Positions 3,256 through 31,203 of a stretch of DNA of 64,000 bases are shown here, piece after piece. Under the pieces are notes generated by a model. It was not told the origin of the DNA. It made no database searches and saw nothing but the letters and a program-made list of their open reading frames with translations. A program made the translations under genes and the position numbers. The first letter of the stretch is position 1. Each line of letters starts with the position of its first letter. Source of the DNA: Microbacterium esteraromaticum (GTDB lineage: Bacteria; Actinomycetota; Actinomycetes; Actinomycetales; Microbacteriaceae); assembly GCF_900163815.1 (NCBI RefSeq), contig NZ_FUKO01000049.1, positions 1-64,000 of the forward strand. The letters are read 5' to 3'.

Positions 3256-4086
3256 CTAAGTAGCCGGTGCGCGTAGTCCGTGTTCGACGGTGGCGAAGAA
3301 GTCTTGCGCGAGTGCGGTGAGTTCAGTTCCGGCTTTGCCCGGTGTGCCTGTGCCGAATGGTGGTTCTGGTGCGTACTCCGCTCCGAGTTCAAGGAACTGC
3401 GCGTACTCGTCACCTCGAAGACGTCCGACCAGGCGTAAGGCGAGGTCCATGCCGGCGGTGACGCCCGCGGCAGTCATAACGTTCCCGTCGACGACGACTC
3501 TCTCGTCGATAGGCGTTGCCCCATAGCCGGCGAGGAGGTGGCGGACAGACCAGTGTGAGGTAGCTCGCCTCCCGTGGAGGAGGCCGGCGGCGGCGAGGGC
3601 GATGGCGCCGGTGCAAACGCTCGCGACGACCTGCGCCGCGTATCCCAGGCGACGAATATCGGTCATCGCGTGAGGGTCGTTGGTCAGGACACTGGTGTCT
3701 CCGCCGGGTACGAGGAGCACGGTCGGCGCGTCGGCGACGTCTGCCAGCGCGATCGTCGGCGTCAGCGGGAGCCCGCCCGCACTAACGACTGGCGCTCCGG
3801 GTTCGCCGGTTGTGGCGAGATGGATGGTTGCGCCGAGCATGGAGCTGAGGAAGTAGTGTGGGCCGATTGCGTCGAGGGTGTCGAACCCGGGGTGCAGGAC
3901 GATGACGATCTCTTCGTCTGCCTGGAAGGTGACGCCGGGTCGGGCAGCGAGCGCTTCGTGTGCGGCGACGGAACGGTCCCACGCGGCCTGAACTTCCGTG
4001 TCGCGCGTTGCATCTGTAGCCATCGAGGGCTGGTCGTGGTGCATGGCGTCCCAGTCACGGTGGAGGTTGTCGTGTGTATCGGTCAT
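3256..4086 (-). CDS. DJ-1/PfpI family protein, isonitrile-hydratase-like
   Basis: 276 residues. After a roughly 55-residue polar N-terminal extension comes a DJ-1/PfpI domain with the nucleophile elbow ASVCTGAIALAAAGLL (Cys158) and RRATSHW, the arrangement of isonitrile hydratases and of GlxA-type sensor domains. It has no AraC helix-turn-helix, so it should be an enzyme rather than a regulator. Its ATG overlaps the stop of the ABC ATPase gene (ATGA), making it the last gene of a four-gene transport operon. It probably acts on the imported ligand. Isonitrile hydration is one possibility; general DJ-1 hydrolase or chaperone activity is another. Confidence 0.8.
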   Translation of the reverse strand: MTDTHDNLHRDWDAMHHDQPSMATDATRDTEVQAAWDRSVAAHEALAARPGVTFQADEEIVIVLHPGFDTLDAIGPHYFLSSMLGATIHLATTGEPGAPVVSAGGLPLTPTIALADVADAPTVLLVPGGDTSVLTNDPHAMTDIRRLGYAAQVVASVCTGAIALAAAGLLHGRRATSHWSVRHLLAGYGATPIDERVVVDGNVMTAAGVTAGMDLALRLVGRLRGDEYAQFLELGAEYAPEPPFGTGTPGKAGTELTALAQDFFATVEHGLRAPAT

Positions 4087-4880
4087 GGTGTGCTCCTATC
4101 GGTGTAGACAAGCTGGGTGCGGCCGGTCAGAGGGTTGGTGATCGTGGCCGCGGTGACCCCGAAGACGCGACGCAGCAGTTCAGGGGTGAAGACGTCCTGG
4201 GGTGTCCCGTCGGCAGCGACGACGCCGTTGGAGAGGACGGCGATGCGGTCGCAGTAGGCGGCCGCGAGGTTGAGGTCGTGCAGCGTCACCAGGATGGTGA
4301 TGCGGAGATCGCGGACGAGGGCGAGGAGTTCGAGCTGGTGTCGGATGTCGAGATGGTTCGTGGGCTCGTCGAGCACGAGGATTCGCGGCTGCTGCGCGAG
4401 GGCGCGTGCGAGGTGCACCCGTTGCCGCTCCCCTCCGGAGAGGGTTGCGACCGGTCGCGCTGCGAAGTTGGTGACGTTCGTGACGGACATCGCGTGTTCG
4501 ATTGCAGCGCGATCGTCCCGGCTGTCGGCGCCGAGGAGACGGCCATGGGGCACCCGGCCGGTCGCGACGCATTCTGCGACGGTGAGCTCGAGATCTGTCG
4601 GACCGTCCTGAACGACAGCTGCGGTAATGCGGGCGGCATCTCGTGCACGCATCTGCCAAACTTCGTCTCCGTCCGCGACGACACGCCCGGATGTCGGTGA
4701 GAGCATGCGATAGATCGTTCTGAGGAGGGTGGATTTGCCGCTCCCGTTCGGTCCGACGAGCCCGACCACCTCTGCGTCCGCGGTGAGGGAGACCCGGTCG
4801 ATGATGCGCCGTCCGGCGACCTGCACGCTCACACCTTCAACGTCGAGCCGGGCACCTACTGTGCGGTCTGGCTGATTCAT
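4083..4880 (-). CDS. ABC transporter ATPase (FecE/BtuD type, metal-chelate import)
   Basis: 265 residues with Walker A GPNGSGKST (43-51), Q-loop AAVVQD, signature LSGGERQRVHLARAL, Walker B ILVLDEPTNHLD and the switch histidine in LVTLHDLNLAA. This motif set is typical of the FepC/FecE class that powers siderophore, haem or cobalamin import. The ATG at 4880 overlaps the permease stop codon (ATGA), which fixes the start and implies translational coupling. It is the third gene of the substrate-binding protein / permease / ATPase / DJ-1 operon. The ligand is not evident from sequence. Confidence 0.9.
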   Translation of the reverse strand: MNQPDRTVGARLDVEGVSVQVAGRRIIDRVSLTADAEVVGLVGPNGSGKSTLLRTIYRMLSPTSGRVVADGDEVWQMRARDAARITAAVVQDGPTDLELTVAECVATGRVPHGRLLGADSRDDRAAIEHAMSVTNVTNFAARPVATLSGGERQRVHLARALAQQPRILVLDEPTNHLDIRHQLELLALVRDLRITILVTLHDLNLAAAYCDRIAVLSNGVVAADGTPQDVFTPELLRRVFGVTAATITNPLTGRTQLVYTDRSTP

Positions 4881-5935
4881 GTCGCGCTCCGTCCGGACCG
4901 GCGCAGCAGCCACAGGAAGAACGGTGCTCCGATCGCCGCGGTGAGCAGCCCGACAGGAAGCTCCGTCGGGGCGAGGACGGTCCGGGCAACGATGTCCACC
5001 ACGACCAGCAGCAGGCCTCCCGCTAGAGCAGAGCTGGGAAGCAGCCAGCGGTGATCCGAGCCGACGATCATGCGCATGGCGTGGGGCACGACAAGGCCCA
5101 CGAATCCGATTGCCCCGCTGACGGCGACAACGACGCCGACCAGAAGAGACGTGATGACGAACAGGACGAGGCGGACCCGTCCGACATCGATACCGAGACT
5201 TGCCGCAGTCTCGTCTCCGACGAGAAACGCGTTCAAAACGCGGGCGAGCAGAACGAGAACGGCGATTGTGATCACGAGCACCGCTGAAGGGAGCCCGAGG
5301 CCGTCCCATTCCGCGGCGGCGAGGCTACCGGAGAGCCAGGAGAGCACGGACGTCACTCCTTCCCCGGGTGAGCTGGCCCGCAGCACGAGGTAGCTGGTGA
5401 TCGAGCTCAGCAGATAGGACATCGCAACGCCCGCGAGCACGAGCCGGTTCGGCGTCACTCGCCCGCGCTGCTGCGCGAGGAGGAAGACGATCAACGTTGT
5501 CGCCAGTGCGCCGGCGAACGCGGCGATCGGCACCGAGACGACCGCGAGAGCCCCGGTCGCGAGCGTCAACGTCGCCACCGCCGCGACCGAGGCCCCGGAG
5601 GAGACACCGAAGACGAACGGGTCGGCGAGCGGGTTGCGGACGACAGCCTGCAAGACAGCACCGGCGACAGCGAGCGCCGCACCGACGACGAAACCCAGCA
5701 GTGCCCGCGGAAGGCGGAACTCCCAGATGATGCGCGTCTCGATGTCCGTCGCCGAGGTCGGGATAGTCCAGGGCAACAGATGATCGGCGATGACGGTAAT
5801 GATCCGATCCGGCGACACCGTCACCGAACCGACGCCGACCGAGAGGATCAGGGCGGCAACGGAGGCGAGGATGAACACGCCGACAGCGATCCGTGGCCGA
5901 TGCGGTGCACCGATCACGGATTCGGTTCGCGTCAC
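4877..5935 (-). CDS. FecCD-family ABC permease
   Basis: 352 residues, about ten membrane segments, with the family hallmarks RLPRALLGFVVGAALAVAGA near residue 75, NPLADPFVFGVSSGA and GFVGLVVPHAMRM. It forms a homodimeric channel with the ATPase downstream to import a metal chelate or a cobalamin-like ligand. The GTG start at 5935 overlaps the stop of the binding-protein gene (GTGA) and its own stop overlaps the next ATG, so the operon is tightly packed. Only one permease gene is present, as in BtuCD-type or homodimeric systems. Confidence 0.9.
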   Translation of the reverse strand: MTRTESVIGAPHRPRIAVGVFILASVAALILSVGVGSVTVSPDRIITVIADHLLPWTIPTSATDIETRIIWEFRLPRALLGFVVGAALAVAGAVLQAVVRNPLADPFVFGVSSGASVAAVATLTLATGALAVVSVPIAAFAGALATTLIVFLLAQQRGRVTPNRLVLAGVAMSYLLSSITSYLVLRASSPGEGVTSVLSWLSGSLAAAEWDGLGLPSAVLVITIAVLVLLARVLNAFLVGDETAASLGIDVGRVRLVLFVITSLLVGVVVAVSGAIGFVGLVVPHAMRMIVGSDHRWLLPSSALAGGLLLVVVDIVARTVLAPTELPVGLLTAAIGAPFFLWLLRRSGRSAT

Positions 5936-6954
5936 GGCGCGGGAACCGTCAGTTCCAGCTCCGAGTGCAGGGCGTTCGCGATCTCGGTCAGTCCTCGCAT
6001 CACGGTCACGGATGCGTCGGTGTCATCGACGGGGATCTCCACGAGATTCCCGGCCTGCACCGCTGGAAGGTCGGGGAATGTCTGCTCAAGGTAGGCGCGG
6101 AGGGTGTCGTAGTCCTGTCCCTCGAAGGTTCCGACGAGGACGACCTCCGCGTCTGAAGCGGCGAAGTCCTCCTTGCTGACGTAGACGGAGTCCGCAGGGA
6201 ACACGTTTCGGCCGCCTGCCGTCTCGATGGCGTCGTCGTAGATGCCGCCTGCGAGCACGATGAGCGGGCCCTCGCCGCCGTTGTAGAAGGCGACTTCCAC
6301 GGTGTCTTTTCCTTCGACGGCGTCGATGACGGTCTGCTTGTCCTGCTCGAGATCTGCGATGAGCTCTTCTGCCCGGTCGCTGACGCCGAAGATAACCCCC
6401 AGATCGCGCAGCGTATCGATGGGGGTGTCCAGGGTCATCGCGATGGCGTCCCCACCGTCGGCGTCGCAGATATTCGCCCCGTAGACCTGTGCTCCGCTAT
6501 TCTCGATCTGCTCCACCGACGCATATCCCTGGGACGTGTCGAACGCGTAGCCTTCCAGCGACTGACCAAGCACGAGATCGGCACCCTCGCTGAGCAGCAC
6601 CTCCTTCGACGGCCACCCCATGGCCGATCCGATCGACGGGATCTCTTCCGCCTCTTCCGCCAACGAGGCGGGGTACGCCGCGTAGTCGCCGGCCCGGGCG
6701 ACGAGATGGTCGCCGAGGCCCAGGGCTAGCATCATCTCGGTCGGCGCCTGCCACAGGCTCACGACATGCTCGGGTGCAGCGTCGAAGGTCAACGTCCTCC
6801 CGCAGTTCTCGATCGACACGGGATACCCCGCCTCCGATGATGGTGTCTCCGCATCCGCCAATGAGGACGGGGCTGGCGATGACGCCGAGCATCCTGCGAG
6901 GGCGAGGAGGAGAGCGGCTGCTGCGACGGTTGTTGCGCTGTGAATCCTGGTCAT
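5932..6954 (-). CDS. Substrate-binding lipoprotein of the FecCD-type importer
   Basis: 340 residues. It starts MTRIHSATTV and has a lipobox LALAGC (Cys22), so it is a lipid-anchored solute-binding protein. The body is a helical-backbone (cluster A) periplasmic-binding fold: RTLTFDAAPEHVVSLW, ADLVLGQSLEGYAFD, and a C-terminal ALHSELELTV tail. Start ATG 6954 was chosen because the signal peptide begins there, although the frame stays open far upstream. It is the first gene of the import operon. Its promoter region holds an inverted repeat (6960-6980) and a CTACATGTTGTAG operator (6995-7009) also found at the copper genes. The ligand is unknown. Confidence 0.85.
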   Translation of the reverse strand: MTRIHSATTVAAAALLLALAGCSASSPAPSSLADAETPSSEAGYPVSIENCGRTLTFDAAPEHVVSLWQAPTEMMLALGLGDHLVARAGDYAAYPASLAEEAEEIPSIGSAMGWPSKEVLLSEGADLVLGQSLEGYAFDTSQGYASVEQIENSGAQVYGANICDADGGDAIAMTLDTPIDTLRDLGVIFGVSDRAEELIADLEQDKQTVIDAVEGKDTVEVAFYNGGEGPLIVLAGGIYDDAIETAGGRNVFPADSVYVSKEDFAASDAEVVLVGTFEGQDYDTLRAYLEQTFPDLPAVQAGNLVEIPVDDTDASVTVMRGLTEIANALHSELELTVPAP

Positions 6955-6994: not shown

Positions 6995-7009
6995 TCTACA
7001 TGTTGTAGA
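6995..7009. promoter_or_regulatory. CTACATGTTGTAG operator A (BlaI/CopY-like)
   Basis: TCTACATGTTGTAGA has TCTACA/TGTAGA arms around TGT. The stretch CTACATGTTGTAGAGATA recurs exactly at 14225-14242, before the DUF5134 gene. It sits between the divergent import operon and the DJ-1-AraC regulator and could control both. The TACA…TGTA pattern is what BlaI/MecI/CopY repressors bind, and such a repressor is encoded at 8124. Confidence 0.6.
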
Positions 7010-7080
7010 GATATCAATTGTCCCGAAGGAACCACCAGGACAACAGAGGCAGGAACCGCCGGGAAGGATAGATTTCCGCC

Positions 7081-8067
7081 ATGTCGCACGCGCAAACCGC
7101 CGCGGTCACGCAGCGGCATCGCATCGCGGTGCTCGCGCTGGAGCACATGATGCCGCTGGAAATATGCATGCCTTTCGTCGTGTTTGGGGCACCGCACTTG
7201 GCTTACGACGTCGTCCTGTGCGGACGCCAGGCAGGCCTCGTGCCGACGGATCACGGGTGGCCGATCGTGGTCGAGCTCGGACTCGACGCCGTCGCCGTCG
7301 CGGACACGGTGATCGTGCCCGCTTTCCGCGGTTTCCTCGACAGCGTGCCGGACGACGTCGCTGAAGCGCTGCGCGCTGCACACGGCAACGGCGCACGCAT
7401 CGCCTCCATCTGCACCGGCGCTTTCGCTCTCGCCGCAGCAGGATTGCTCGACGGCAAACGCGCCACCACCCACTGGTGCCACGCGGACGAGCTCTCCTGC
7501 CGCTATCCCGTAGCAGAGATTGACCCCGGCGTGCTCTTCGTGGACTCAGGCGACGTCCTCACCTCGGCGGGAGTCGTTAGCGGCATCGATCTCTGCCTGC
7601 ACCTCCTGCGATCAGACCGCGGCGCCGCCGTCGCCAACGACATCGCCCGCACCATCGTCGCCGCCCCCTATCGCGACGGGGGACAGGCCCAGTTCATCCG
7701 CCGGCCGGTGGCCGCGGTGGCCTCCGGAGATATCGGTCGCACTCAGGAGTGGGCGCTGGGGCGCCTTCACGAGCCGCTGACCGTCGCCGATCTCGCCGCT
7801 CACGCCAGGATTCCGCGGCGAACATTCGAGCGGCGATTCACCGAAGAACTGGGCGCCACGCCCATCCGATGGCTCAACAGTGCACGCATCGACCACGCTC
7901 GCGAGCTACTGGAGTCCACCGACTGGACCATCGAATACATCAGCAGCCTGTGCGGCCTCGGCAGCCCCGCGAACTTCCGTCAGCACTTCCGCCGCGCTAC
8001 GGGAACCAGCCCGCGCGAGTATCGAAAGGCGTTTACCCACGCCCGAGCAGGCGTTGCTTCACCTTGA
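7081..8067 (+). CDS. GlxA-type transcription regulator (DJ-1 sensor + AraC helix-turn-helix)
   Basis: 328 residues. Residues 12-175 form a DJ-1/PfpI domain with the elbow IASICTGAFALAAAGLL (Cys111) and KRATTHW; residues about 220-320 form an AraC-type DNA-binding domain (PRRTFERRFTEELG, then ISSLCGLGSPANFRQHFR). It is divergent from the import operon, whose last gene encodes a DJ-1 protein with the same cysteine motif, so sensor and enzyme may recognise the same small molecule. It probably activates that operon. The ATG follows the intergenic operator A. No ligand can be named. Confidence 0.88.
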   Translation: MSHAQTAAVTQRHRIAVLALEHMMPLEICMPFVVFGAPHLAYDVVLCGRQAGLVPTDHGWPIVVELGLDAVAVADTVIVPAFRGFLDSVPDDVAEALRAAHGNGARIASICTGAFALAAAGLLDGKRATTHWCHADELSCRYPVAEIDPGVLFVDSGDVLTSAGVVSGIDLCLHLLRSDRGAAVANDIARTIVAAPYRDGGQAQFIRRPVAAVASGDIGRTQEWALGRLHEPLTVADLAAHARIPRRTFERRFTEELGATPIRWLNSARIDHARELLESTDWTIEYISSLCGLGSPANFRQHFRRATGTSPREYRKAFTHARAGVASP

Positions 8068-8069
8068 GC

Positions 8070-8086
8070 CTACGACGTGATGTAGA
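8070..8086. promoter_or_regulatory. CTACGAC-NN-GATGTAG operator B
   Basis: CTACGACGTGATGTAGA lies 38-54 nt ahead of the BlaI-type repressor ATG. It matches 9344-9360 in every base except the two in the centre. It is probably the autoregulatory site of the repressor. Confidence 0.65.
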
Positions 8087-8123
8087 TTTGATGATCGATT
8101 GACATGCAGAGTGGAGGTGGCAG

Positions 8124-8507
8124 ATGGCGGGTGAGCGCACGCGTGAACGAGGGGAGCTCGAGGGCACCGTCATGCGCATCCTCTGGGAGGCGTCCGAGCC
8201 GTTGAGCGCCCGTGATATTCAGGCGGTGTTCACGGGTCACGTTCCTGCGTATGCGACGTTGATGACGGCGCTGGAGCGTTTGCAGAAGAAGGGCGATGTC
8301 GTCCGCTCCGGCGACTCTCCGCGGAAGGTTCGCTTCCGTGCGGCGCGAAGCGGGGACGAGCATGTCGGCCGGTCGATGATGACCGCCCTCGATGGAGCCG
8401 GAGACCGGCAGGCTGCTCTATTGCAGTTCGCCGGGAACCTCGCCGAGGAGGACCTCGATCTGCTCCGCGGCGCGATCACCGGCAAGACTTCCCGCAAGCG
8501 CAGGTGA
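8124..8507 (+). CDS. BlaI/MecI/CopY-family transcriptional repressor
   Basis: 127 residues with the winged-helix domain of the family: ELEGTVMRILWEASEPLSARDI, YATLMTALERLQKKG and the wing RKVRFRAA. A GGAGG site precedes the ATG. Next to it, as in beta-lactam and copper loci, is an M56 membrane peptidase gene (4-bp gap). Family members are released from DNA by cleavage or by copper. Here the surrounding chaperone, CtaG, CopA, YcnI and CopCD genes make copper the likely signal. Candidate operators are at 8070-8086 (own promoter), 9343-9360, 6995-7009 and 14225-14237. Confidence 0.9.
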   Translation: MAGERTRERGELEGTVMRILWEASEPLSARDIQAVFTGHVPAYATLMTALERLQKKGDVVRSGDSPRKVRFRAARSGDEHVGRSMMTALDGAGDRQAALLQFAGNLAEEDLDLLRGAITGKTSRKRR

Positions 8508-8511
8508 GCCG

Positions 8512-9318
8512 TTGATCGCCACCGGCTCCTTCCTCGCCGCAGCGGTGCTCATTCTGCTGTTCTCGCCTCTCATGTTGACGGCGGGCCGGTGGCAGGTGCG
8601 CCGCCCACGGACCGCTCTGACGCTGTGGTTCTGCGCTTTCTTCGCTGGAATCGGATTCGCGGTGACCTCCGCCGCTATTGCACTGCTGGGTGCCGTCGGC
8701 GGGGTGAATCCTGCGAGTTCAGGTGAAGCGCTGGTGCTGACGCTCGTTGGCTGGTTGAGCCTGGGTGTGCTGGCCGCGGTGATCGCTCTTGTCTCCGCGT
8801 CCGCGGAGCCGCTCGCCGACTCGTGGCGGGAGGCGGTCGGACGCTTCGCCCCGGTGGCAGTCTCCCGCGAGCACTCGCATGGTGTCACCCTCGTGTGGTT
8901 CGATTCCGAGGAGCCGGTGGCGTGTGCGGTGCCTTCTGGGGAGCCAGAGATCTTCCTCTCTACCGCGCTCAAGGAGCTGTTGAGCGACCCGCAGCTTCGT
9001 GCCGTGATCGAGCATGAGCGTGCTCATCTGCGTCAGCATCACGGGTGGGCGGTGCGAATTGCTGAGATCAACGCGCTCTGCTTGCCCAAGCGGTTCCCGG
9101 CCGGGCGAGCGCTCAAGCGGGCCACTCTCCTGTTGATCGAACTCATCGCGGACGATGCAGCCGCTCGTCGCGCCGGTGCCGTCCACCTCGCCAACGCCCT
9201 CGCGACGATGGGGCATAACACGGCCGATCCCGGCCTTGAGCTTCGCGCAGACCGGCTCACCCTCCGCCGCTGGAAGAAGCCGCGGAGCCAGCGCGCCGCA
9301 GCCCTCGCACGCGCCTGA
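8512..9318 (+). CDS. M56-family membrane metallopeptidase (BlaR1/MecR1-like)
   Basis: 268 residues. Three or four N-terminal membrane segments are followed by a zinc site IEHERAHLRQHHGW (HExxH near residue 167) and the downstream glutamate block LIELIADDAAARR. There is no C-terminal penicillin-binding sensor domain, as usual in actinobacterial M56 proteins. The TTG at 8512 is the first plausible start after the repressor stop (8507). By analogy it cleaves or otherwise inactivates the neighbouring BlaI-type repressor in response to a membrane or metal signal. Confidence 0.82.
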   Translation: MIATGSFLAAAVLILLFSPLMLTAGRWQVRRPRTALTLWFCAFFAGIGFAVTSAAIALLGAVGGVNPASSGEALVLTLVGWLSLGVLAAVIALVSASAEPLADSWREAVGRFAPVAVSREHSHGVTLVWFDSEEPVACAVPSGEPEIFLSTALKELLSDPQLRAVIEHERAHLRQHHGWAVRIAEINALCLPKRFPAGRALKRATLLLIELIADDAAARRAGAVHLANALATMGHNTADPGLELRADRLTLRRWKKPRSQRAAALARA

Positions 9319-9342
9319 CCTCGCCGGCACCGGCCACCCTTG

Positions 9343-9360
9343 TCTACGACACGATGTAGA
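9343..9360. promoter_or_regulatory. CTACGAC-NN-GATGTAG operator C
   Basis: TCTACGACACGATGTAGA, 36-53 nt before the copper-chaperone ATG. Seven-base half sites CTACGAC/GATGTAG with a 2-nt centre match operator B at 8070-8086, so the chaperone-CtaG-CopA operon is probably controlled by the same repressor. Confidence 0.65.
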
Positions 9361-9395
9361 GTTATCGGAGTGGTTGGGTGTCAGGAGGAGTAGTC

Positions 9396-9623
9396 ATGGC
9401 CGAGTTCGAGTTCTGGGTGAACGGGATGACCTGCGAGCACTGCGAGCGCGCTGTTACGGCCGAGCTTTCCGCGCTCTCGGGTGTCGTCGATGTCCAGGTG
9501 GATGCCGCTTCCGGTCGCGTTCTTCTCGCCCACGAGAGGCCCCTTGATCTGATTGTGGTGGAGTCGGCTGTCGATGATGCCGGCTACACGGTGCGGTCCT
9601 GGCCCGCAGTGGTGGATGTCTGA
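9396..9623 (+). CDS. Heavy-metal-associated (HMA) copper chaperone
   Basis: 75 residues, a single HMA domain: FWVNGMTCEHCERAV with Cys13 and Cys16 as the metal-binding pair. It should carry Cu(I) in the cytoplasm to the CopA-type ATPase two genes downstream. The start is ATG 9396, which has an AGGAGG site 8 nt upstream; the in-frame GTG at 9378 would lie before that site. The next gene begins inside its last codons, so the two are translationally coupled. Confidence 0.9.
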   Translation: MAEFEFWVNGMTCEHCERAVTAELSALSGVVDVQVDAASGRVLLAHERPLDLIVVESAVDDAGYTVRSWPAVVDV

Positions 9624-11682
9624 CACCATCGCGGCCACCACTGCAGCGTCCGCGCCCATGCCGGATCCTCGAGTGCGTAAACCCTTGACTGCGGTGGCCG
9701 CGCTTCTAATCGGCGGAGCCGCCCTCGCGCTCATCGCCTTCCCGATTGTCGTGGCGGTCATGCTCGGCGAAGCACCGTATGACCTTCTACATGTCGGATA
9801 TCCGGGCGTCGATGTGGCTGTGATCACCACCAGTCTGCTCTCCGGCGCGCAGCTCGCCACCTTGGTGACCAGTGGTGCGCTGGTGCATCTGTTGTTCCTG
9901 AGGGATGCGCCTGCCCGCACGGCGCGCTATCTCTCGGAGGGTTTCGAGATCACGGTGCTGCGCATCGCTTCGGGGGCATGGGCCGTGTGCGCAGGTGCGC
10001 TGGTGGTCTTCGAGGCTCTTGATTCCAATGGCACTCCGTTGGCGCGCCTGGCGACGCCCAGCGCGTTGCCGTTCCTGTGGGAGGCGAGCTATGCGCCGAA
10101 GGCGTGGACGATCAGTTTCCTGGCGGCGTTGATCGTTTTCTTCGTCTCGTTCTTCTCGGAACGGTGGACGGGCCTGATGATCCCGTTGTGGGCGACCGGA
10201 ATCGCGGTGCTCGCCCCTGTCGTGTCTGGGCAAGTGCTCGTGGGCCCCGATCATGACTTCGGCAGTGACGCGGCGATCTTCCAGACCATCGCTGTGAACG
10301 CGTTCTTCGGGGCGGCACTGGTCGCCGTCATGCGCGTGGTCTCCGGGCGGCTTGTCTCGCCGCTGACTTTGCGGCGACTGTTCCGGATCGGGGTCGTCGC
10401 GCTTCCCGTCATCGTCGTCTCCGATGTGATCATCGCCGTGTTCAAGCTCGCTGGTGGCGATATCGCCGCCTCGCTGACCGGGTGGCTGATTCTCGCTGGC
10501 TTCGCCTGCCTGGTCGTCATCACGGTGGTGTTTGTCGTCGCCGCGATCCTCGCCCGGCGAGGAAAGCTGCGGGCCGGGCACATCACCGGGCTCCTCTCCC
10601 TGGCGGCCGTGGCGGTGGCGGGGTGGACCGGGGTCGGTGTGGCGATGACGAGGCAGCCGCCGCCGCAGTACTTCGTGCCGACGAGCATCGAGCAGGTCTT
10701 CATGGGCTTCGAGGTCCCTGACGCTCCGACGCTCGGTGTGTTGTTCGGGCAGTGGCGTCCGAACCTGCTGTTCCTGGGTATCGCCGCGGCGGCGATCATC
10801 GTCTACCTGGTCGCTGTGCGCACGTTGCACCGCCGGGGTGATCGGTGGCCTCTCGGGCGGACGGCCGCGTGGATCGGCGGGTGGACGGTTGTGGTCGTCG
10901 CCACGAGCTCTGGGTTCGGGAAGTACTCGGCCCCGGATTTCGGGGTGCACATGATCGTGCATATGTCGCTGAACATGCTCGCCCCGGGGCTTCTCGTCCT
11001 CGGAGGCGTCGTCACACTGCTGCTACGGGCATCCCGCTCGGACCGGACGAAACCGGCGGGCTTGCACGACTGGATCACGTGGGTGCTGCACTGGCGGGTG
11101 CTGCAGTTCCTCTACAACCCGCTGATCGTGTTCGTGGTCTTCGTCGGCTCCTACTACGGCCTGTATCTCACGGGCATCTTCGGCGACTACATGCGGTTCC
11201 ACTGGGCGCACCAGCTCATGAACCTGCACTTCCTCATCGTCGGCTACCTCTACTACAGTCTCATCATCGGCGTCGACCGGCCCCCACGGCCTCTCCCGCA
11301 TATCGGCAAGCTCGGGTATGTGCTGGCGGCGATGCCGTTCCATGCGTTCTTCGGCGTGATCCTGATGACCAGCCATGTGATCATCGCCGAGACCTTCTAC
11401 CGCTACCTCGACCTGCCCTGGGCCGACCTGCAGGCCCAGCAATACCTTGGCGGCGGCGTCGCGTGGGCGGGCGGGGAGATCCCGCTGATGATCGTCATCG
11501 TCGCACTCGCCATCCAGTGGAGCCGGCAAGACGCCACAGGTGCCCGCCGTAAGGACCGGCACCTCGACACCGGCCGCGACGACGAGTACGACGCCTACAA
11601 CCAGATGCTCCAGCGCCTCGCCGACCGCGACGCCACCCGACCCGGCCCCCGACCGACCGTCCGAGAGGACACCCACTCATGA
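9616..11682 (+). CDS. CopD-CtaG fusion membrane protein (copper transport / cytochrome oxidase assembly)
   Basis: 688 residues with about 14 membrane segments. The first half (to about residue 350) resembles the CopD copper-import domain; the second half is a caa3-type CtaG domain (PDFGVHMIVHMSLNMLAPGL, FHWAHQLMNLHFLIVGYLYY, MPFHAFFGVILMTS), rich in His and Met. Such fusions move copper across the membrane toward cytochrome oxidase assembly. ATG 9616 overlaps the chaperone gene by 8 nt, and the stop overlaps CopA (ATGA), giving a chaperone/CtaG/CopA operon. Confidence 0.88.
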   Translation: MSDTIAATTAASAPMPDPRVRKPLTAVAALLIGGAALALIAFPIVVAVMLGEAPYDLLHVGYPGVDVAVITTSLLSGAQLATLVTSGALVHLLFLRDAPARTARYLSEGFEITVLRIASGAWAVCAGALVVFEALDSNGTPLARLATPSALPFLWEASYAPKAWTISFLAALIVFFVSFFSERWTGLMIPLWATGIAVLAPVVSGQVLVGPDHDFGSDAAIFQTIAVNAFFGAALVAVMRVVSGRLVSPLTLRRLFRIGVVALPVIVVSDVIIAVFKLAGGDIAASLTGWLILAGFACLVVITVVFVVAAILARRGKLRAGHITGLLSLAAVAVAGWTGVGVAMTRQPPPQYFVPTSIEQVFMGFEVPDAPTLGVLFGQWRPNLLFLGIAAAAIIVYLVAVRTLHRRGDRWPLGRTAAWIGGWTVVVVATSSGFGKYSAPDFGVHMIVHMSLNMLAPGLLVLGGVVTLLLRASRSDRTKPAGLHDWITWVLHWRVLQFLYNPLIVFVVFVGSYYGLYLTGIFGDYMRFHWAHQLMNLHFLIVGYLYYSLIIGVDRPPRPLPHIGKLGYVLAAMPFHAFFGVILMTSHVIIAETFYRYLDLPWADLQAQQYLGGGVAWAGGEIPLMIVIVALAIQWSRQDATGARRKDRHLDTGRDDEYDAYNQMLQRLADRDATRPGPRPTVREDTHS

Positions 11683-13934
11683 CGACCACGGACACCACCA
11701 CACCGGTGGATCTCACCCCGGTAGAGCTCGACATCTCCGGGATGACCTGCGCCGCCTGCGCGGGACGCGTCGAGCGCGCACTGGGCAAGCTCGATGGTGT
11801 GACGGCGAGCGTCAACTACGCCACCGAACGCGCCATCATCACCGGCCTTCCCGACAGCGAGGTGCCCACGGCGATCCGTCAGGTCGAGAACGCCGGATAC
11901 GGTGCGCACCTACGCGAGGGCAGCGACGACACCTGGTCGACGCGCGCCACCGAGGTACGGATCTCCTCCCTCCGGCGTCGCCTGGCTGTGTCCGCGCTGC
12001 TCACTGTCCCGCTGATGGACATCACTATCGTTCTCGCCCTCGTCCCCGGGTGGCGGTTCCCCTGCTGGGAATGGGTATGCGTGCTGATGGCCCTGCCGAT
12101 CGTGACCTGGGCCGCGTGGCCATTCCACCGGGCCACGCTCCGCAACCTGCGCCACGGCGCAGTCAGCATGGACACCCTCGTCTCCCTCGGCATCGCCGCC
12201 TCCTTCGGATGGGCGATCCTCACCCTGCTGCTCGGGTTCGGCACCACCGAAGCCGCCAGCTACTGGCTCGGCTTCGGCGTCACCCCCGCAGGCGCCGACT
12301 CCATCTATCTGGACGTCGCCGCCGGAATGACGACCTTTCAACTCGCCGGCCGGTACTTCGAGACCCGTTCCCGCCGCAAAGCCGGCGATGTCCTCGGCGC
12401 TCTGAACGCCCTCGCCGCCACTCACGTCCGGGTCGTTAGCGACGGCGTCGAGACGATCGAACCCGCAACCGCACTCCGCGTCGGCGACACCTTCGTCGTC
12501 CTTCCGGGTGAGACGATCCCCGCCGATGGCATCGTCCACGCGGGCACGGCCGCGGTGGATGCGAGCATGATGACCGGGGAACCCGTCCCCGTGCCCGTCG
12601 GCCCCGGAGCCGCGGTGACCGGCGGGACGATCAGCACCGACGGTCGCCTGGAGGTGACCACGACCTCGGTCGGCGCCAACACCCAGCTCGCGCAGATGGC
12701 CGCCCTCACCGAGCAGGCCCAGGCCCGCAAAGCGCGAGTGCAGAACCTCGTCGACCGCATCGTCACCTGGTTCGTCCCCGCCGTCATCACCCTCGCGATC
12801 ATCGTCACCGTCGCCTGGACATTCACCGGCACCCCGTTCGCGCAGGCGTTCGGCATCGGGATCAGCGTCCTCATCATCGCCTGCCCCTGCGCACTCGGGC
12901 TCGCAACGCCGACCGCACTCATGGTCGGGATCGGACGGGCCGCGACCCTCGGCATCCTCATCAAAGGCCACGACGCCCTCGAAGCCTCCGGCACCATCAC
13001 CACCGTCGTCCTCGACAAGACCGGAACCCTCACCACCGGACGCATGACCGTCGAAACCGCGACCCCCTTCGGAATCGCCGATCACGAACTGTGGCGTCTC
13101 GCAGCCTCTGTGGAGCAGGGTTCCGAGCATGCGATCGCGCACGCCATCCAGGACGCCGCCCGCGCCCACGTCACCGACCTTCACCCGTTGGAGGACTTCA
13201 CCGCCCTCCCCGGCCTCGGTGCTACCGCCCGCATCACAGGGAGCACCCTCCTCGTCGGGAACGCCGACCTGCTCCGCGAGCACGGCATCGACCTCACCCC
13301 GGCGGCCGCAGCGCTCGCGGACGCCCACGAGCACGGGCACACCGTCGCTCTCGTCGCTCGCGACGGGCAGCTGATCGGGCTCCTTGCCCTCGCCGACACC
13401 ATCAAGCCCGGCGCCGCGGACGCCATCACAGCGCTGCACGCCCAGAACCTCACCACCGTGCTCCTCACCGGCGACAGCCCCGCTGCCGGTGCTCGCATCG
13501 CGGCCGAACTCGGCATCGAACGCGTCCACGCCGGCGTCGCCCCTGCCCAGAAAGCAGACGTCGTCCGCGAACTCCAAGCAGCCGGAGAAAAGGTCGCGAT
13601 GGTCGGCGACGGCATCAACGACGCCATCGCCCTCGCCACCGCGGACCTCGGGCTCGCGCTCGTGTCCGGCACCGACATCGCCCTCAAAGCCGCGGACATC
13701 ATCCTCGTCCGCGACGACCTCCACGTCATCCCGGATGCGATCGCGATCTCCCGCAAGACCCTCCGCACCATCCGCACCAACCTCGGCTGGGCCTTCGGAT
13801 ACAACATCGCCGCGATCCCGATCGCTGCTGCCGGGTTCCTGAACCCCCTCATCGCCGCCGCCGCGATGTCCCTGTCCTCCGTCCTCGTCGTCTACAACAG
13901 CCTCCGCATCCAGCGCGTGCGCAGCACCCGGTAG
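11679..13934 (+). CDS. copA: Copper-translocating P1B-type ATPase
   Basis: 751 residues. One N-terminal HMA domain (GMTCAAC, Cys24/Cys27), eight expected membrane helices, TGEP actuator loop, transmembrane CPC motif near residue 402, phosphorylation site DKTGTLT near 446, the P-domain GDGIND near 643, and C-terminal YN and MSLSS motifs in the last two helices. CPC plus YN and MxxSS define Cu(I)-exporting P1B-1 ATPases. Odd point: the P-domain reads GDGINDAIAL where nearly all relatives have AP at positions 6-7 of this motif. It is coupled to the CtaG gene by an ATGA overlap. Confidence 0.92.
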   Translation: MTTTDTTTPVDLTPVELDISGMTCAACAGRVERALGKLDGVTASVNYATERAIITGLPDSEVPTAIRQVENAGYGAHLREGSDDTWSTRATEVRISSLRRRLAVSALLTVPLMDITIVLALVPGWRFPCWEWVCVLMALPIVTWAAWPFHRATLRNLRHGAVSMDTLVSLGIAASFGWAILTLLLGFGTTEAASYWLGFGVTPAGADSIYLDVAAGMTTFQLAGRYFETRSRRKAGDVLGALNALAATHVRVVSDGVETIEPATALRVGDTFVVLPGETIPADGIVHAGTAAVDASMMTGEPVPVPVGPGAAVTGGTISTDGRLEVTTTSVGANTQLAQMAALTEQAQARKARVQNLVDRIVTWFVPAVITLAIIVTVAWTFTGTPFAQAFGIGISVLIIACPCALGLATPTALMVGIGRAATLGILIKGHDALEASGTITTVVLDKTGTLTTGRMTVETATPFGIADHELWRLAASVEQGSEHAIAHAIQDAARAHVTDLHPLEDFTALPGLGATARITGSTLLVGNADLLREHGIDLTPAAAALADAHEHGHTVALVARDGQLIGLLALADTIKPGAADAITALHAQNLTTVLLTGDSPAAGARIAAELGIERVHAGVAPAQKADVVRELQAAGEKVAMVGDGINDAIALATADLGLALVSGTDIALKAADIILVRDDLHVIPDAIAISRKTLRTIRTNLGWAFGYNIAAIPIAAAGFLNPLIAAAAMSLSSVLVVYNSLRIQRVRSTR

Positions 13935-13960
13935 GAGAAAGCCAGAAGACAGATACCCCG

Positions 13961-14134
13961 ATGGAGTTCTTCCTGCCGCTGTCCCTTGCCGCGACGCTCT
14001 ACCTCCTCGTGCTCTGGATCGCCCTCACCACACCGCCACGGCCCCCACAGCTCTCAGATCCCACCCTGCGCGACGAATGGGACTCCGTTGCCTTTCGGGT
14101 GCGCAAAGGCGTCGAACGCCTGCGCAGGCGGTAG
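13961..14134 (+). CDS. Small single-span membrane protein
   Basis: 57 residues: one N-terminal membrane helix (LPLSLAATLYLLVLWIAL) followed by a basic cytoplasmic tail ending GVERLRRR. The start 26 nt after the CopA stop, with a GAAAG-type site upstream, suggests it is the last gene of the chaperone operon. I know no named family. A role as a small partner of CopA or CtaG is only inferred from position. Confidence 0.6.
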   Translation: MEFFLPLSLAATLYLLVLWIALTTPPRPPQLSDPTLRDEWDSVAFRVRKGVERLRRR

Positions 14135-14224
14135 CGCCCTCGCGGGAGCCCGAGCCGGCTCACCCGGGGAGACGCTGTGCGCAGGCGCTTTGACCTCGCG
14201 ATCGCCACCCCGCTAATGTAGCTA

Positions 14225-14237
14225 CTACATGTTGTAG
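14225..14237. promoter_or_regulatory. CTACATGTTGTAG operator D
   Basis: The 18 bases starting at 14225 repeat exactly those of operator A at 6996-7013. The palindrome ends 16 nt before the DUF5134 ATG. Its half sites overlap more closely than in operators B and C (13 versus 16 bp), so a second repressor or a different dimer register is possible. Confidence 0.6.
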
Positions 14238-14253
14238 AGATAAGGTGTGTGGC

Positions 14254-14844
14254 ATGCTGTCTGACCCGGTGCTCCAATGGACGCTGACACTCGCCTTCTC
14301 CGCGACCGCCGCCTACGCAACACTGCGACTCTTCACAGACCGCAAGCCGCTGCTCATCGTGGGCAACGCTCTGCACCTGGTGATGAGCCTCGTGATGATC
14401 GCCATGTGCTGGCCGTGGTGGACCGTACTGCCGCCACTCCCGCAGACGCTCTTCTTCTCGGCCGGCACGGCCTGGTTCGGTGCGATCGTGCTCCTCCAGA
14501 CGCGGCGTCGCATCACCCGGGCTGCCGTGGGCGGACACAGCGCGTGGCATCAGGTGGCACACGCGGGCATGATGCTCGCGATGGTCTGGATGATCCTCGC
14601 GATGCCTTCCGGAACCGACGCCACGATGCATGCCCACCACCATGGCGGACTCGAGCCGTGGGCCGCCCTGACAGGGGTTGCCATCACCGCGGCGCTGACG
14701 ACATCCGGCGTCCTTTTTCTCGTCGAGCTCATCCGCTGCCTGCGCGGTCGCACGACCTGGCTCGGACACACCGGCGACGTCGCTTCCGGGACTCTCATGA
14801 GCTTCGGCATGGCAGCGATGTGCTGGCCGATGATCACCGGCTAA
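14254..14844 (+). CDS. DUF5134 family membrane protein
   Basis: 196 residues with about six membrane segments and many histidines and methionines (HLVMSLVMIAMCWPWW; MHAHHHGGLEPW). DUF5134 proteins usually sit in actinobacterial copper clusters. The His/Met-rich segments suggest copper binding or passage, but the function is unknown. ATG 14254 has an AAGG site 8 nt upstream; GTG 14245 is an alternative. It is followed by the YcnI and CopC-CopD genes, and operator D lies directly upstream. Confidence 0.8.
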   Translation: MLSDPVLQWTLTLAFSATAAYATLRLFTDRKPLLIVGNALHLVMSLVMIAMCWPWWTVLPPLPQTLFFSAGTAWFGAIVLLQTRRRITRAAVGGHSAWHQVAHAGMMLAMVWMILAMPSGTDATMHAHHHGGLEPWAALTGVAITAALTTSGVLFLVELIRCLRGRTTWLGHTGDVASGTLMSFGMAAMCWPMITG

Positions 14845-14908: not shown

Positions 14909-15646
14909 ATGAACACACGACGCACCAAGAGGCCCCTTCTGATCGGAACCGGAGCCCTCGCGGCTACTGCCGCACTGGTTCTGGGCGGTGCCGTCGCTGC
15001 GAACGCACACGTCAGTATCGCGGAAGGCCCGGTGGAGGCGGGCTCGTACTCGATCCTCACGTTCAGCGTGCCACATGGATGCGATGGGGCTGCGACGACG
15101 GAGGTGGCGATCCAGATCCCCGAGGGCATCAACGCCGTCACACCCACCCGCAACAGCCTGTACACCGTCGAGAAGGTGATGGAAGACCTCGACACCCCGA
15201 TCACTGACAGCCACGGCAACGAGGTCACCGAACGCGTCGCGCAGGTCGTCTACACGGCGGCGACGCCGCTCCCCGATGGGCAGCGAGACGCGTTCGAACT
15301 CTCGCTGCAGATCCCCGAGGACGCCGCCGACACCGCCCTGTACTTCCCGACTGTGCAGACCTGCGAGCAGGGCGAGACCGCCTGGGTGCAGATCCCGGAA
15401 GAAGGCCAGGACGGCCACGATCTGGACGCGCCAGCCCCCAGCGTCGACGTCGTCGCAGCCAGTGACGCAGGATCGCACGGGCACGGTGACAACACTGACG
15501 CCACCGTCGATGCGCACGACGAGGATTCGGCATCCGCGGCGGCTCCTGCAGATCAGACGCCGCTCGTTGTAACCTCGCTCGCCGTCGGCAGTATCGGCCT
15601 CATCGTCGCTGTCATCGCGCTGCTGAGGGGACGCAAGAAGGCGTGA
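14909..15646 (+). CDS. ycnI: YcnI-type copper-binding protein (DUF1775)
   Basis: 245 residues. A signal peptide ends at ANA-HV, leaving His34 as the mature N-terminus, the usual first copper ligand of YcnI proteins. The DUF1775 domain (FSVPHGCDGAATTEVAIQIP) is followed by an acidic His/Asp-rich linker, a single C-terminal helix and RGRKKA, so the protein is anchored outside the membrane. Family members bind Cu(II) and are found beside CopC/CopD, as here. The stop overlaps the GTG of the CopC-CopD gene. Confidence 0.88.
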   Translation: MNTRRTKRPLLIGTGALAATAALVLGGAVAANAHVSIAEGPVEAGSYSILTFSVPHGCDGAATTEVAIQIPEGINAVTPTRNSLYTVEKVMEDLDTPITDSHGNEVTERVAQVVYTAATPLPDGQRDAFELSLQIPEDAADTALYFPTVQTCEQGETAWVQIPEEGQDGHDLDAPAPSVDVVAASDAGSHGHGDNTDATVDAHDEDSASAAAPADQTPLVVTSLAVGSIGLIVAVIALLRGRKKA

Positions 15647-17364
15647 GCACTCTCATCGCCGGGAAACACGCACCGCGACAGGGTTCCGCCCTGGTCCTCC
15701 GTGCGCTGGCAGCCCTCCTCCTAGGAGGACTGCTGACGCTGACGGGAGCGCAGGCAGCGTCCGCGCATGCCGAGTTGCTGTCCACGACACCGGAGAACGG
15801 TGCCGTGCTCGATGAGGCTCCCGCTGAGGCGGTGCTGACGTTCAACGAGCCCGTACAGCTCATCGACGGCAGCATCCGCCTGTTTCCCGGCGATGACAAC
15901 CCCCTCACCCTCGACGCGCACGTCACCAACACCAGCGTCATCGCCGCGCTCCCCGCCGACCTAGCGGATGCGGGCTACGCGCTGAGCTACCGCGTCGTCT
16001 CAGCAGACGGGCACCCCATCTCCGGCGCGATCACCTTCACCATCGGAGACGGCCAGGCGGACAGCGCGACGGCTCCCATCGTGGAAACCGCGACACCTCC
16101 AGACACCCAGTTCGCCGTCAGCGCCCTGACGGCACTGCAATACCTCTCGCTCCTGGTCTTCGCCGGCCTGATCCTGTTCGAGCGACTGGTGCTGCGCAGC
16201 ACAGCACCACCTGAATACTGGTCCAGGAACATCCTGCGACTGACCGGCATCGGAGCGGGAACCGCCTCGCTGCTGCTCATACCCACGTCAGCGCTCAACG
16301 TGACCGGAAACCCACTGACCGCGGTGATCGATCCGACTGCATGGTGGTCGGGTGTCCTCTGGGCACCGGTCGCTGCGGCCATCATCGTATGCGCAGGACT
16401 CGCCGGAGCCGCCGTACTATCGATGCGTCAGCAGGAGCGCAGGGGGATGCGCCTGCTCGCCGTGCTGCCGCCGCTCCTCGCGCTGGCTGCGCCCGTGCTC
16501 GCCGGACACACCCAACTGATGGAACCGCGAGCACTGATCATCGCCGCCGACCTTGGACACCTTCTCGCCGGCTCCTTCTGGACAGGAGGAGTCCTCGGCC
16601 TCCTCCTATTCCTCGCCGCCACCCGCGTGACCAGTACCCAAGAGGCACGTACCGCACCGACTCTCGCCGCGAAGGTCGTGCAGAGGTTCTCCCGCGGCGC
16701 GGTCTGGAGCGTCTTTATCCTCGCAGTCAGCGGAACTCTCATGGGCATCATGATCGTCGGAAGCCTCGACGCTCTCGTCACGACCAGCTACGGGCTCACC
16801 CTCCTGCTCAAGATCGGGATCATCATCCCCGTCATCGCGATCGCCGCCTACAACAGAACCCGACTCCTCCCACGCATCGCGTCACGACCGACCGCACGCA
16901 TGCAATGGCAGACGCTGACCCGAACCCTCAGCTACGAAGCCGCACTCCTCATTGCCATTCTGCTCCTGACCGGCTTCCTCACCAATCTCAGCCCCACACA
17001 CGAACACCACGACACGCCAACCGAGAACACGGCCGCCACCGCTCAGACCGTCACTATCGACGCGGATGCCCAGGGGCTATCGCTGCGGGGCGAGCTCGAA
17101 CCAGCGGTGGCCGGCGAGAACAGGATCACCTTCACACTCGAATACGACGCCGAACCAGTCACGCCCGACGAAGTGACCATTCGCACCCACCAGGCCGAGC
17201 ACGATCTCGGGCCGTTCCAGACCACAGCTGAACTCGACCCAGCAACCGGTCAATACTCCGCGGATCTAGACATGCCCGTCACCGGAGAATGGGAGATACA
17301 AGTGCTCGCCCGCGTATCCACCTTCGCGCAGCCGATCGTCACGATACCCATCACCATCAATTAG
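15643..17364 (+). CDS. CopC-CopD fusion copper resistance/uptake protein
   Basis: 573 residues. A signal peptide ends at ASA-HAELL, so His42 starts the CopC beta-sandwich (SADGHPISGAITF holds a second His ligand). Then comes a CopD domain of about eight membrane helices, and a C-terminal extracytoplasmic segment of about 120 residues resembling a YtkA-like immunoglobulin fold. It should bind Cu(II) outside and move copper across the membrane. The GTG start overlaps the YcnI stop (GTGA), so the two are coupled. It ends the copper block. Confidence 0.88.
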   Translation: MSTLIAGKHAPRQGSALVLRALAALLLGGLLTLTGAQAASAHAELLSTTPENGAVLDEAPAEAVLTFNEPVQLIDGSIRLFPGDDNPLTLDAHVTNTSVIAALPADLADAGYALSYRVVSADGHPISGAITFTIGDGQADSATAPIVETATPPDTQFAVSALTALQYLSLLVFAGLILFERLVLRSTAPPEYWSRNILRLTGIGAGTASLLLIPTSALNVTGNPLTAVIDPTAWWSGVLWAPVAAAIIVCAGLAGAAVLSMRQQERRGMRLLAVLPPLLALAAPVLAGHTQLMEPRALIIAADLGHLLAGSFWTGGVLGLLLFLAATRVTSTQEARTAPTLAAKVVQRFSRGAVWSVFILAVSGTLMGIMIVGSLDALVTTSYGLTLLLKIGIIIPVIAIAAYNRTRLLPRIASRPTARMQWQTLTRTLSYEAALLIAILLLTGFLTNLSPTHEHHDTPTENTAATAQTVTIDADAQGLSLRGELEPAVAGENRITFTLEYDAEPVTPDEVTIRTHQAEHDLGPFQTTAELDPATGQYSADLDMPVTGEWEIQVLARVSTFAQPIVTIPITIN

Positions 17365-18429: not shown

Positions 18430-18442
18430 GTGCTGCTTCTTT

Positions 18443-30296: not shown

Positions 30297-30463
30297 CGAC
30301 CGTTGAGCAGTCTCCGGCGCACACGAGCACGGCCGCATCGTTCAACGCGGAACCAACCTGGCTGCCGGCGGCCCGCTATACCGGCTTCTGGGCCGAACAC
30401 AGCCGCGCTGCCGGATGGCGCCTCGAACCCACCGCCACACCACACGGACAGGAATCACACTGA
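30293..30463 (+). pseudogene. 56-residue ORF, head-to-tail remnant of an ABC transporter gene
   Basis: The product starts MTTVEQSPAHTSTAASFNAE and ends with FWAEHSRAAGWRLEPTATP. The second half matches the C-terminal tails of the IrtAB-like proteins here: YRDAAGWRLEAS in the fused protein and YWRERVEAAGWKLTHHD at 39581. Both ends keep ATGA overlaps with the TetR and SIP genes. The simplest reading is an in-frame deletion that removed one or two ABC genes and left their first and last codons joined. A functional small protein cannot be excluded. Confidence 0.6.
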
Positions 30464-31203
30464 TGGCCAACTGGCAGCGCGGCGTGATGCGCCTGATGCG
30501 CATTCCCAACCACGCGGTCACCGTCACCGTGATCCACGACTACACCCCGTGCTACCGGCGCATCACCTTCACCGCGCCAGACCTCGTCAACCAGCTGGAG
30601 GTGTTCCCCACGCTCTGGCTACGCCTGTGGGTGCCGCACCCTGCGAAAGGCGAGGGGCACCTCAGCCAGCGCGGATACACCTTCGTCGACATCCGGCCAG
30701 ACGAGGGCACGTTCGCTCTCGACTTCATCCTGCACGAACAACCCGGCCCCGCCGGAGACTGGGCAAAGAACGCCGCCATCGGCCAGAGGCTCGACGTCGC
30801 ACTGACCCCAGCCAGAATCAGCCTGCCCGAGAAAGCAACCGAGGTCATCCTCGCCGGCGACACCACCGCCCTGCCCGCGATCAACACCTGGATCGACGCC
30901 ATCCCCACCCACCTGCCCGTATCAGTGGCGATCGAAGACGATCACGACGACCTCGCCGGCCTGCCCTGTGCAGCGCGAGAGAACGTGACCTGGACCTGGG
31001 TGGGGCCAGAGGCGACGCGCGGTGCCGCGCTCGCGGCGCATCTGACGGGTTCCGAGCACGCCCGGCCGGGCCTGTACGCGTGGGCGGCGGGAGAGAAGAC
31101 CCTGATCAAACATGTCCGTTCGGTGTTCCGCGACCACCTCCAGCTGGACCGGTCCTCGCAGTTCACCCAGTTCTACTGGATCCACGGCAAAGCCACCGGC
31201 TGA
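30463..31203 (+). CDS. Siderophore-interacting protein (FAD-dependent ferric-siderophore reductase)
   Basis: 246 residues. N-terminal FAD-binding barrel with YRRITFTAPDLVN and the flavin motif RGYTFVDIRPDEG, C-terminal SIP domain with AGDTTALPAINTWI and the closing QFYWIHGKATG. It reduces imported ferric siderophore in the cytoplasm and releases Fe(II). In mycobacteria this domain is fused to the ABC transporter; here it is separate and directly follows the ABC remnant. ATG 30463 overlaps the previous stop. Confidence 0.88.
   Translation: MANWQRGVMRLMRIPNHAVTVTVIHDYTPCYRRITFTAPDLVNQLEVFPTLWLRLWVPHPAKGEGHLSQRGYTFVDIRPDEGTFALDFILHEQPGPAGDWAKNAAIGQRLDVALTPARISLPEKATEVILAGDTTALPAINTWIDAIPTHLPVSVAIEDDHDDLAGLPCAARENVTWTWVGPEATRGAALAAHLTGSEHARPGLYAWAAGEKTLIKHVRSVFRDHLQLDRSSQFTQFYWIHGKATG

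Follow-up and report, generated by a model that had tools for sequence, protein, structure and literature searches.

Four candidate BlaI operators sharing one dyad core in a putatively mobile copper gene cluster of Microbacterium esteraromaticum

Four short palindromes, sites A to D, lie in what appears to be a copper gene cluster of Microbacterium esteraromaticum (contig NZ_FUKO01000049.1, positions 1 to 64,000; this whole 64,000-nucleotide stretch is called the window). They raise the question of whether one repressor can read all four when the distance between their CTAC and GTAG half sites seems to differ. A preliminary description of the locus assigned the sites to one metal regulon, distinguished two spacings, and proposed either one repressor adapting to both or two paralogous repressors. 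The best explanation found here is that A to D are operators of a single BlaI-type repressor, relieved by a protease, that governs a copper-supply regulon; taken in full it is probable, and its core element, one BlaI operator code, is very probable. Feature coordinates are collected in Table 1.

All four sites were confirmed; they are located in promoter regions and occur far above chance. Their positions are as first described: B reads CTACGACGTGATGTAG (8070-8085), C reads CTACGACACGATGTAG (9344-9359), A and D both carry CTACATGTTGTAGAGATA (6996-7013 and 14225-14242), and Pfam assignments agree with the genes then placed downstream of each. When the sites are written as CTAC-Nn-GTAG (Nn, n bases between the half sites), the window holds three matches at N8, against 0.11 expected from dinucleotide shuffles (the source of all expected counts given here), and two at N5 (0.07 expected). 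The pattern CKAC-N5-GTAGA has six matches (0.40 expected), namely A on both strands, B, C, D and one at 18442. A genome scan for both spacings, suggested in the preliminary description, found each at five places across all 3.37 Mb of the genome: N8 at sites B, C and D and at two further places, and N5 at A, D, C6:3181, C6:7877 and C28:55272 (contig and position). The binomial chance of such clustering within 7.3 kb is 1e-7 for N8 (three of five places) and 5e-5 for N5 (two of five). The match at C28:55272 shares bases with the stop codon of a PAS/PucR-type gene, lies 92 bp ahead of a gene encoding an immunoglobulin-like domain, and was taken as a chance occurrence.

All four sites share the core C(T/G)AC-N5-GTAG, and the same dyad, with (K)AC...GT(M) half sites, is present in the BlaI loci of relatives (cited below by L numbers). 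A survey of n = 1-15 over 20 independent BlaI loci (338 kb) gave 36 sites at N5 (0.65 expected), 10 at N8 (0.75 expected), five at N6 (0.75 expected) and zero to three at every other spacing. Class-wide, 19 of 29 further BlaI loci contain N5, with 30 sites in total. Thirty other CtaG loci, the best 30 of 119 matching genomes and thus a non-random draw, contain no CTAC-Nn-GTAG at any spacing from 1 to 15 (one of them, L117, has no sequence upstream of the gene, and L113 has no gene call). Among the independent BlaI loci, an N5 or N8 site lies within 300 bp upstream of 13 of 13 BlaI-linked CtaG-operon heads and 9 of 9 DUF5134 heads, with N8 only in L065. These head positions were entered by hand, and the DUF5134 count leaves out the copies in L063 and L068, each of which stands behind another same-strand gene; in L068 the head of the operon containing DUF5134 has a site. 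All 31 N5 sites in 16 loci are intergenic by the calls of a simple in-house caller, which misses some genes and whose calls cover 82% of bases (intergenic share 18%).

Conservation extends to the individual sites. The core of site A recurs unchanged and in the same position in L010, L012 and L140, and with one mismatch (CCAC) in L011; site B is kept in L010, L011, L012, L016 and L058; the N8 form of site C is shared with L009-L013, L018 and L058; and at site D, CTACTAC or TTACTAC is kept in most aligned orthologous promoters. Position, rarity in the genome and conservation in relatives together favour the original proposal that the four sites belong to one regulon. The claim that this regulon concerns a metal is likewise borne out as far as gene content goes, and Pfam points to copper as the metal concerned. 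In B. subtilis and C. glutamicum, CtaG-type proteins, YcnI and CopC-CopD-YtkA proteins help to supply copper or to assemble the oxidase, according to the accessible parts of three papers (PMC9145763, PMC13344008, PMC8424229). The 688-residue CtaG protein gave no Pfam CopD match that would mark a CopD-like part before the Caa3_CtaG domain, as in a CtiP-type fusion.

N5 was present in four of 20 FecB loci (the window, L140, L141 and L158), all near a copper-type BlaI, and the BlaI of the L141 genome lies about 25 kb from its FecB locus; no N5 was found in the 16 other FecB loci. FecBCD families import siderophores, heme or cobalamin, and it is quite conceivable, if not the favoured view, that site A serves iron or heme uptake and that the importer does not carry copper. 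The PepSY_TM protein and Fer2 reductase added to linked clusters in relatives, and the siderophore-type genes elsewhere in the window, fit such a role, but in the window, L140, L141 and L158 the importer shares its operator with the copper genes.

The candidate repressor scores 49.9 bits against PF03965 (Penicillinase_R; cut-off 22.6), and its nearest solved chain by sequence, the only match at 0.01, is 2g9w (E 1.9e-11). The adjoining gene encodes a protease that scores 27.3 bits against PF01435 (cut-off 20.3) and whose HExxH motif reads HERAH. Its 267-residue reading contains no second Pfam domain, so that neither a penicillin-binding sensor domain nor any other added sensor is seen. Proteins of the BlaI type repress as dimers bound to dyads of this kind, and proteases of the BlaR1 type relieve the repression. 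By this model the recognised unit would be the 13-bp dyad core, and the outer left CTAC of B, C and D would be an in-phase second copy of the half site, able to offset the weakened inner half (CGAC) of B and C. We infer that the BlaI encoded between B and C binds as a dimer over all four promoters; it would repress the FecBCD importer and/or the GlxA-type regulator from A, blaI and the protease gene from B, HMA-ctaG-copA from C and DUF5134-ycnI-copCD from D. The M48-type membrane protease would be the likely de-repressor, degrading BlaI as in BlaR1-BlaI, and release by such proteolysis is reasonably likely by analogy.

Most plausibly, the signal would be a shortage of copper for the heme-copper oxidase, since the products of the target genes bring in, carry and insert copper and are not confined to exporting it; this direction is the somewhat better guess. 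Excess copper as the signal, with BlaI acting like CopY and with CopA and the HMA chaperone as export proteins induced by high copper, is rather unlikely. Both export candidates are within the operon, and CopY belongs to the same repressor family (PMC7253601, available part). However, the 127-residue BlaI contains no cysteine and lacks the C-terminal Cys-X-Cys metal site of CopY, so that direct CopY-like copper sensing is unlikely, and the spacing is N5 rather than the N4 of the cop box. Furthermore, in B. subtilis and C. glutamicum the genes for CtaG, YcnI and CopC-CopD serve acquisition or assembly, as far as the sources cited above extend. The genome also holds three genes of the CsoR family, and the one that immediately follows a different P-type ATPase gene is suggestive, at most, of copper excess being left to a separate CsoR system.

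The two spacings had been read in the preliminary description as two classes of operator, A and D against B and C. This division was rejected: D holds both spacings because it reads CTACTACATGTTGTAG (14222-14237), and the orthologues of C in relatives are N5. All four sites have the N5 core, to which B, C and D add an optional CTAC three bases further out. N8 arises mostly from CTACTAC/GTAGTAG, and N5 is the main spacing in the BlaI loci of relatives; by hand tally, N8 sites also hold N5 in eight of 10 cases in the independent BlaI loci and in eight of 18 in the island and its close relatives (seven sequences, with 13 N5 and 18 N8). When DUF5134 promoters are aligned on the right half, 11 of 12 show CTACTAC or TTACTAC, and the CTACGAC of B and C departs from CTACTAC at a single inner base. 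Where the island has N8, the ctaG-operon promoters of L014, L015, L059 and L067 have N5, with matching bases downstream (AGTTA in three of these promoters). Therefore, from the promoter alignments and spacing counts, the sites are most simply read as one core to which an outer half site may be added. Overlapping triplet half sites mimic two operator spacings, which makes the earlier division a natural misreading.

Two real registers, in which the copper BlaI would recognise A and D at N5 but B and C at N8 through a dimer that adapts to half sites three bases wider, are decidedly unlikely. N8-only sites would then be private to the copper BlaI, because the sites of the chromosomal cyd BlaI are N5 only: nine cydA-BlaI loci (one from this genome) contain 22 N5 sites (0.15 expected) and no N8, the latter being present in copper-type loci. 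Retention of the N8-only B and C across 83-90% nucleotide identity, and the N8-only site of L065 that serves both the ctaG and DUF5134 heads, also speak for this alternative. Yet an identical recognition-helix sequence, found in L015 and the island, pairs with N5 or N8 in orthologous promoters, and 3 bp correspond to about 100 degrees of DNA turn. In addition, the inner half of B and C keeps KAC (CGAC), which is allowed by the CopY consensus RNYKACANNYGTMRNY in the accessible text of PMC7253601.

The proposal of two paralogous repressors proved right in that the genome holds two Penicillinase_R genes, but the second has its sites at cytochrome bd and cydDC, with other flanks, and leaves the contrast of A and D with B and C unexplained. 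The second gene, blaI2, belongs to locus L056 (contig C6, 476-7889), where it is divergent from cydA and cydB and is followed by an M48/M56-type protease gene and then, on the other strand, by cydDC. The locus has two N5 sites (C6:3181 and C6:7877), which are placed in the gap separating cydA from blaI2 and about 100 bp upstream of cydDC. Thirty cydA loci of the family were compared (the best 30 of 90 matching genomes, a non-random draw). Each of the eight in which a BlaI is divergent contains between two and four N5 sites, for the most part separated by 22-24 bp, and the 22 cydA loci without an adjoining BlaI have five N5 sites (0.05 expected). Where the genome has a BlaI match at 1e-8, 11 of 14 loci contain such cydA sites; where it has none, 0 of 16 do (Fisher 6.7e-6).

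The two groups of sites differ in their flanks. Those of the cyd group read TTCTAC-N5-GTAGAA, with T before CTAC in 54 of 54 half sites and TT in 49, and those of the copper group read (A/T)CTACA; the latter group comprises 17 loci, including four (L061, L064, L072 and L075) whose status as copper loci is unproven. A classifier built on these flanks, validated by leaving out one locus at a time, was correct for 30 of 36 copper-group and 22 of 25 cyd-group sites. It placed A (+9.4), B (+11.2), C (+6.2) and D (+6.8) on the copper side and C6:3181 (-9.2) and C6:7877 (-1.8) on the cyd side. The classifier assigned both L072 sites to the cyd type, and the BlaI from the same genome (L045) groups with the cyd repressors in the BlaI tree. 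In this 46-row tree, the copper BlaI (22 rows) and cyd BlaI (nine rows) each occupy one side of a branch with support 100/99. A split of A to D between the paralogues was discarded, since all four score as copper type and the sites of the second BlaI are on contig C6. Binding of the palindromes by another factor, such as the GlxA-type regulator that adjoins A and B or the cyd BlaI that reads the same core, is very unlikely, given that sites in independent loci accompany BlaI, mostly without GlxA, that the flanks of A to D score as copper type, and that none of the 16 loci from genomes lacking a BlaI match has cydA sites.

A sister switch on the genome's copper-free backup respiratory enzyme, cytochrome bd, hints at a common way of coping with copper shortage. 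In C. glutamicum, failure of the aa3 oxidase, including through copper deprivation, raises cydABDC through SigC (PMC7337898, in the portion available), and by analogy the bd-oxidase link seen here fits that response. It is possible, although tentative, that BlaI-protease pairs of the Actinomycetes form a respiratory-copper switch. Sibling repressors would run the mobile copper-supply regulon and the chromosomal cyd genes via one CTAC-N5-GTAG core, kept apart by flanks (TT..AA for cyd), with N8-only sites insulating the blaI and ctaG-copA promoters from the host cyd BlaI, and both sets would open as copper-dependent respiration fails.

Several observations weigh against control of A to D by one BlaI through one core. 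Residue 44 of the window BlaI (8253-8255), in the recognition-helix region PAYATLMTAL, is alanine; all 50 other aligned rows have threonine, as do the three 99.9%-identical copies of the cluster, and Ala44 may alter or abolish DNA binding by the window BlaI. A site before blaI itself is present in three of 13 independent copper loci, or six of 20 when seven other BlaI loci are added; autoregulation is therefore not general. Site B was not found in the close relatives L009 and L013, the DUF5134 gene of L063 has no site nearby, and a strict sigma-70 consensus scan returned no promoter at any of the four sites. Finally, N6 shows a small excess in the spacing survey, and the flank classifier misassigned six of 36 copper-group and three of 25 cyd-group sites.

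The cluster is 99.92-99.95% identical over 12.6-15.6 kb to sequences of Agrococcus casei, Frigoribacterium sp. JB110 and Microbacterium gubbeenense, hosts which we take, partly from their names, to be cheese organisms. The A. casei and JB110 matches extend back into the relaxase gene region. The window contains genes for a TrwC relaxase and a TraG/TrwB-type coupling protein (904-2424 and 60676-62436), which places the cluster on a conjugative or mobilisable element; no record in the plasmid collection covered 80% of the cluster. Near-identical transfer among cheese Actinobacteria, and siderophore-type ABC importers with AraC regulators, are also known from the ActinoRUSTI islands (PMC5526665), a likeness drawn from their description; the copper cluster and BlaI are not named in the accessible part of that paper, which lists JB110 as Microbacterium sp. 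The same element carries iron functions, with a siderophore-interacting protein (30463-31203) and two ABC exporter-type half transporters (36118-39581). Frigoribacterium sp. JB110 has three different copper-type BlaI loci (L008, L013 and L015).

Parts of the proposed arrangement are familiar from other systems, each of which is described here from the available portions of the papers cited. As in CopY/CopR of Firmicutes (cop box RNYKACANNYGTMRNY; PMC7253601), a BlaI-like repressor gene precedes copper genes and the half sites are KAC...GTM, but here KAC and GTM are separated by N5 rather than N4, the cysteine motif is lacking and a protease partner gene is present. A to D do not have the N4 spacing of the cop box, and CTAC-N4-GTAG was seen once against 36 N5 sites in the 20 independent loci and not at all against 30 in the 29 class-level loci. 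The repressor and membrane metalloprotease gene pair resembles BlaI-BlaR1 and MecI-MecR1 of staphylococci (PMC7253601, PMC9834060), whereas the partner here has no beta-lactam sensor domain and the putative targets are copper genes. M. tuberculosis BlaI (Rv1846c; 2g9w) is the nearest solved structure by sequence and has respiration among its targets, which reportedly include ATP synthase genes (PMC5874750, PMC7924339), but no copper cluster is reported for it in the portions of the Rv1846c literature consulted. The same kinds of target, YcnI, CopC-CopD and the CtaG-fusion CtiP, are found in B. subtilis YcnK-ycnKJI and the copper-deprivation stimulon of C. glutamicum (PMC13344008, PMC8424229, PMC9145763, PMC7337898), although the regulator here would be BlaI with a protease instead of YcnK or SigC.

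No report of a link between BlaI, copper and cytochrome bd in Actinobacteria was found in the literature searched, which is weak evidence of absence as most subscription papers lie outside its coverage. What appears new is a variant form of BlaI/CopY-type control carried by a mobile cluster at 99.9% identity. For a large actinobacterial family it provides a candidate regulator both of copper supply and of the change to cytochrome bd; the equivalent step is attributed to SigC and other factors in C. glutamicum (PMC7337898, available part). The operator code could be tested on about ten promoters, and the cluster shows a putative regulatory circuit passing intact from genus to genus at 99.9% identity.

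Table 1. Candidate operators and genes of the copper cluster in the window.
Feature	Position	Strand	Basis or remarks
Site A	6996..7008	.	CTACATGTTGTAG; N5 core only, no outer CTAC; between fecB (-) and GlxA-type regulator (+)
Site B	8070..8085	+	Outer CTAC and core CGACGTGATGTAG (8073-8085); upstream of blaI
Site C	9344..9359	+	Outer CTAC and core CGACACGATGTAG (9347-9359); upstream of HMA-ctaG-copA
Site D	14222..14237	+	CTACTACATGTTGTAG; N8 and N5 together, core 14225-14237; upstream of DUF5134-ycnI-copCD
DJ-1/PfpI protein, end of importer operon	3256..4086	-	Pfam
ABC ATPase of importer	4083..4880	-	Pfam
FecCD permease	4877..5935	-	Pfam
FecB-type substrate-binding lipoprotein of importer	5932..6954	-	Pfam Peripla_BP_2
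GlxA-type regulator (DJ-1/PfpI and AraC helix-turn-helix)	7081..8067	+	Pfam
BlaI-type repressor (Penicillinase_R), 127 residues	8124..8507	+	Pfam
Membrane metalloprotease partner, M48-type, HERAH	8512..9318	+	Pfam; TTG start read from sequence
HMA-domain copper chaperone, 75 residues	9396..9623	+	Pfam
Caa3_CtaG protein, 688 residues	9616..11682	+	Pfam, domain at residues 396-638
CopA-type P-type ATPase, 751 residues	11679..13934	+	Pfam
DUF5134 membrane protein	14254..14844	+	Pfam; start 14254 by caller, GTG at 14245 possible
YcnI-type DUF1775 protein	14909..15646	+	Pfam
CopC-CopD-YtkA protein	15643..17364	+	Pfam; YcnJ architecture per available part of PMC8424229

Two further features of the gene arrangement were noted. 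A small open reading frame of 57 codons (13961-14134), predicted to encode a hydrophobic protein, lies between copA and the DUF5134 gene. In L058 (9580-16726), and also in L010, an extra FecCBE set, a PepSY_TM protein, a Fer2 protein and a second DUF5134 are present, with further N5 and N8 sites between them.

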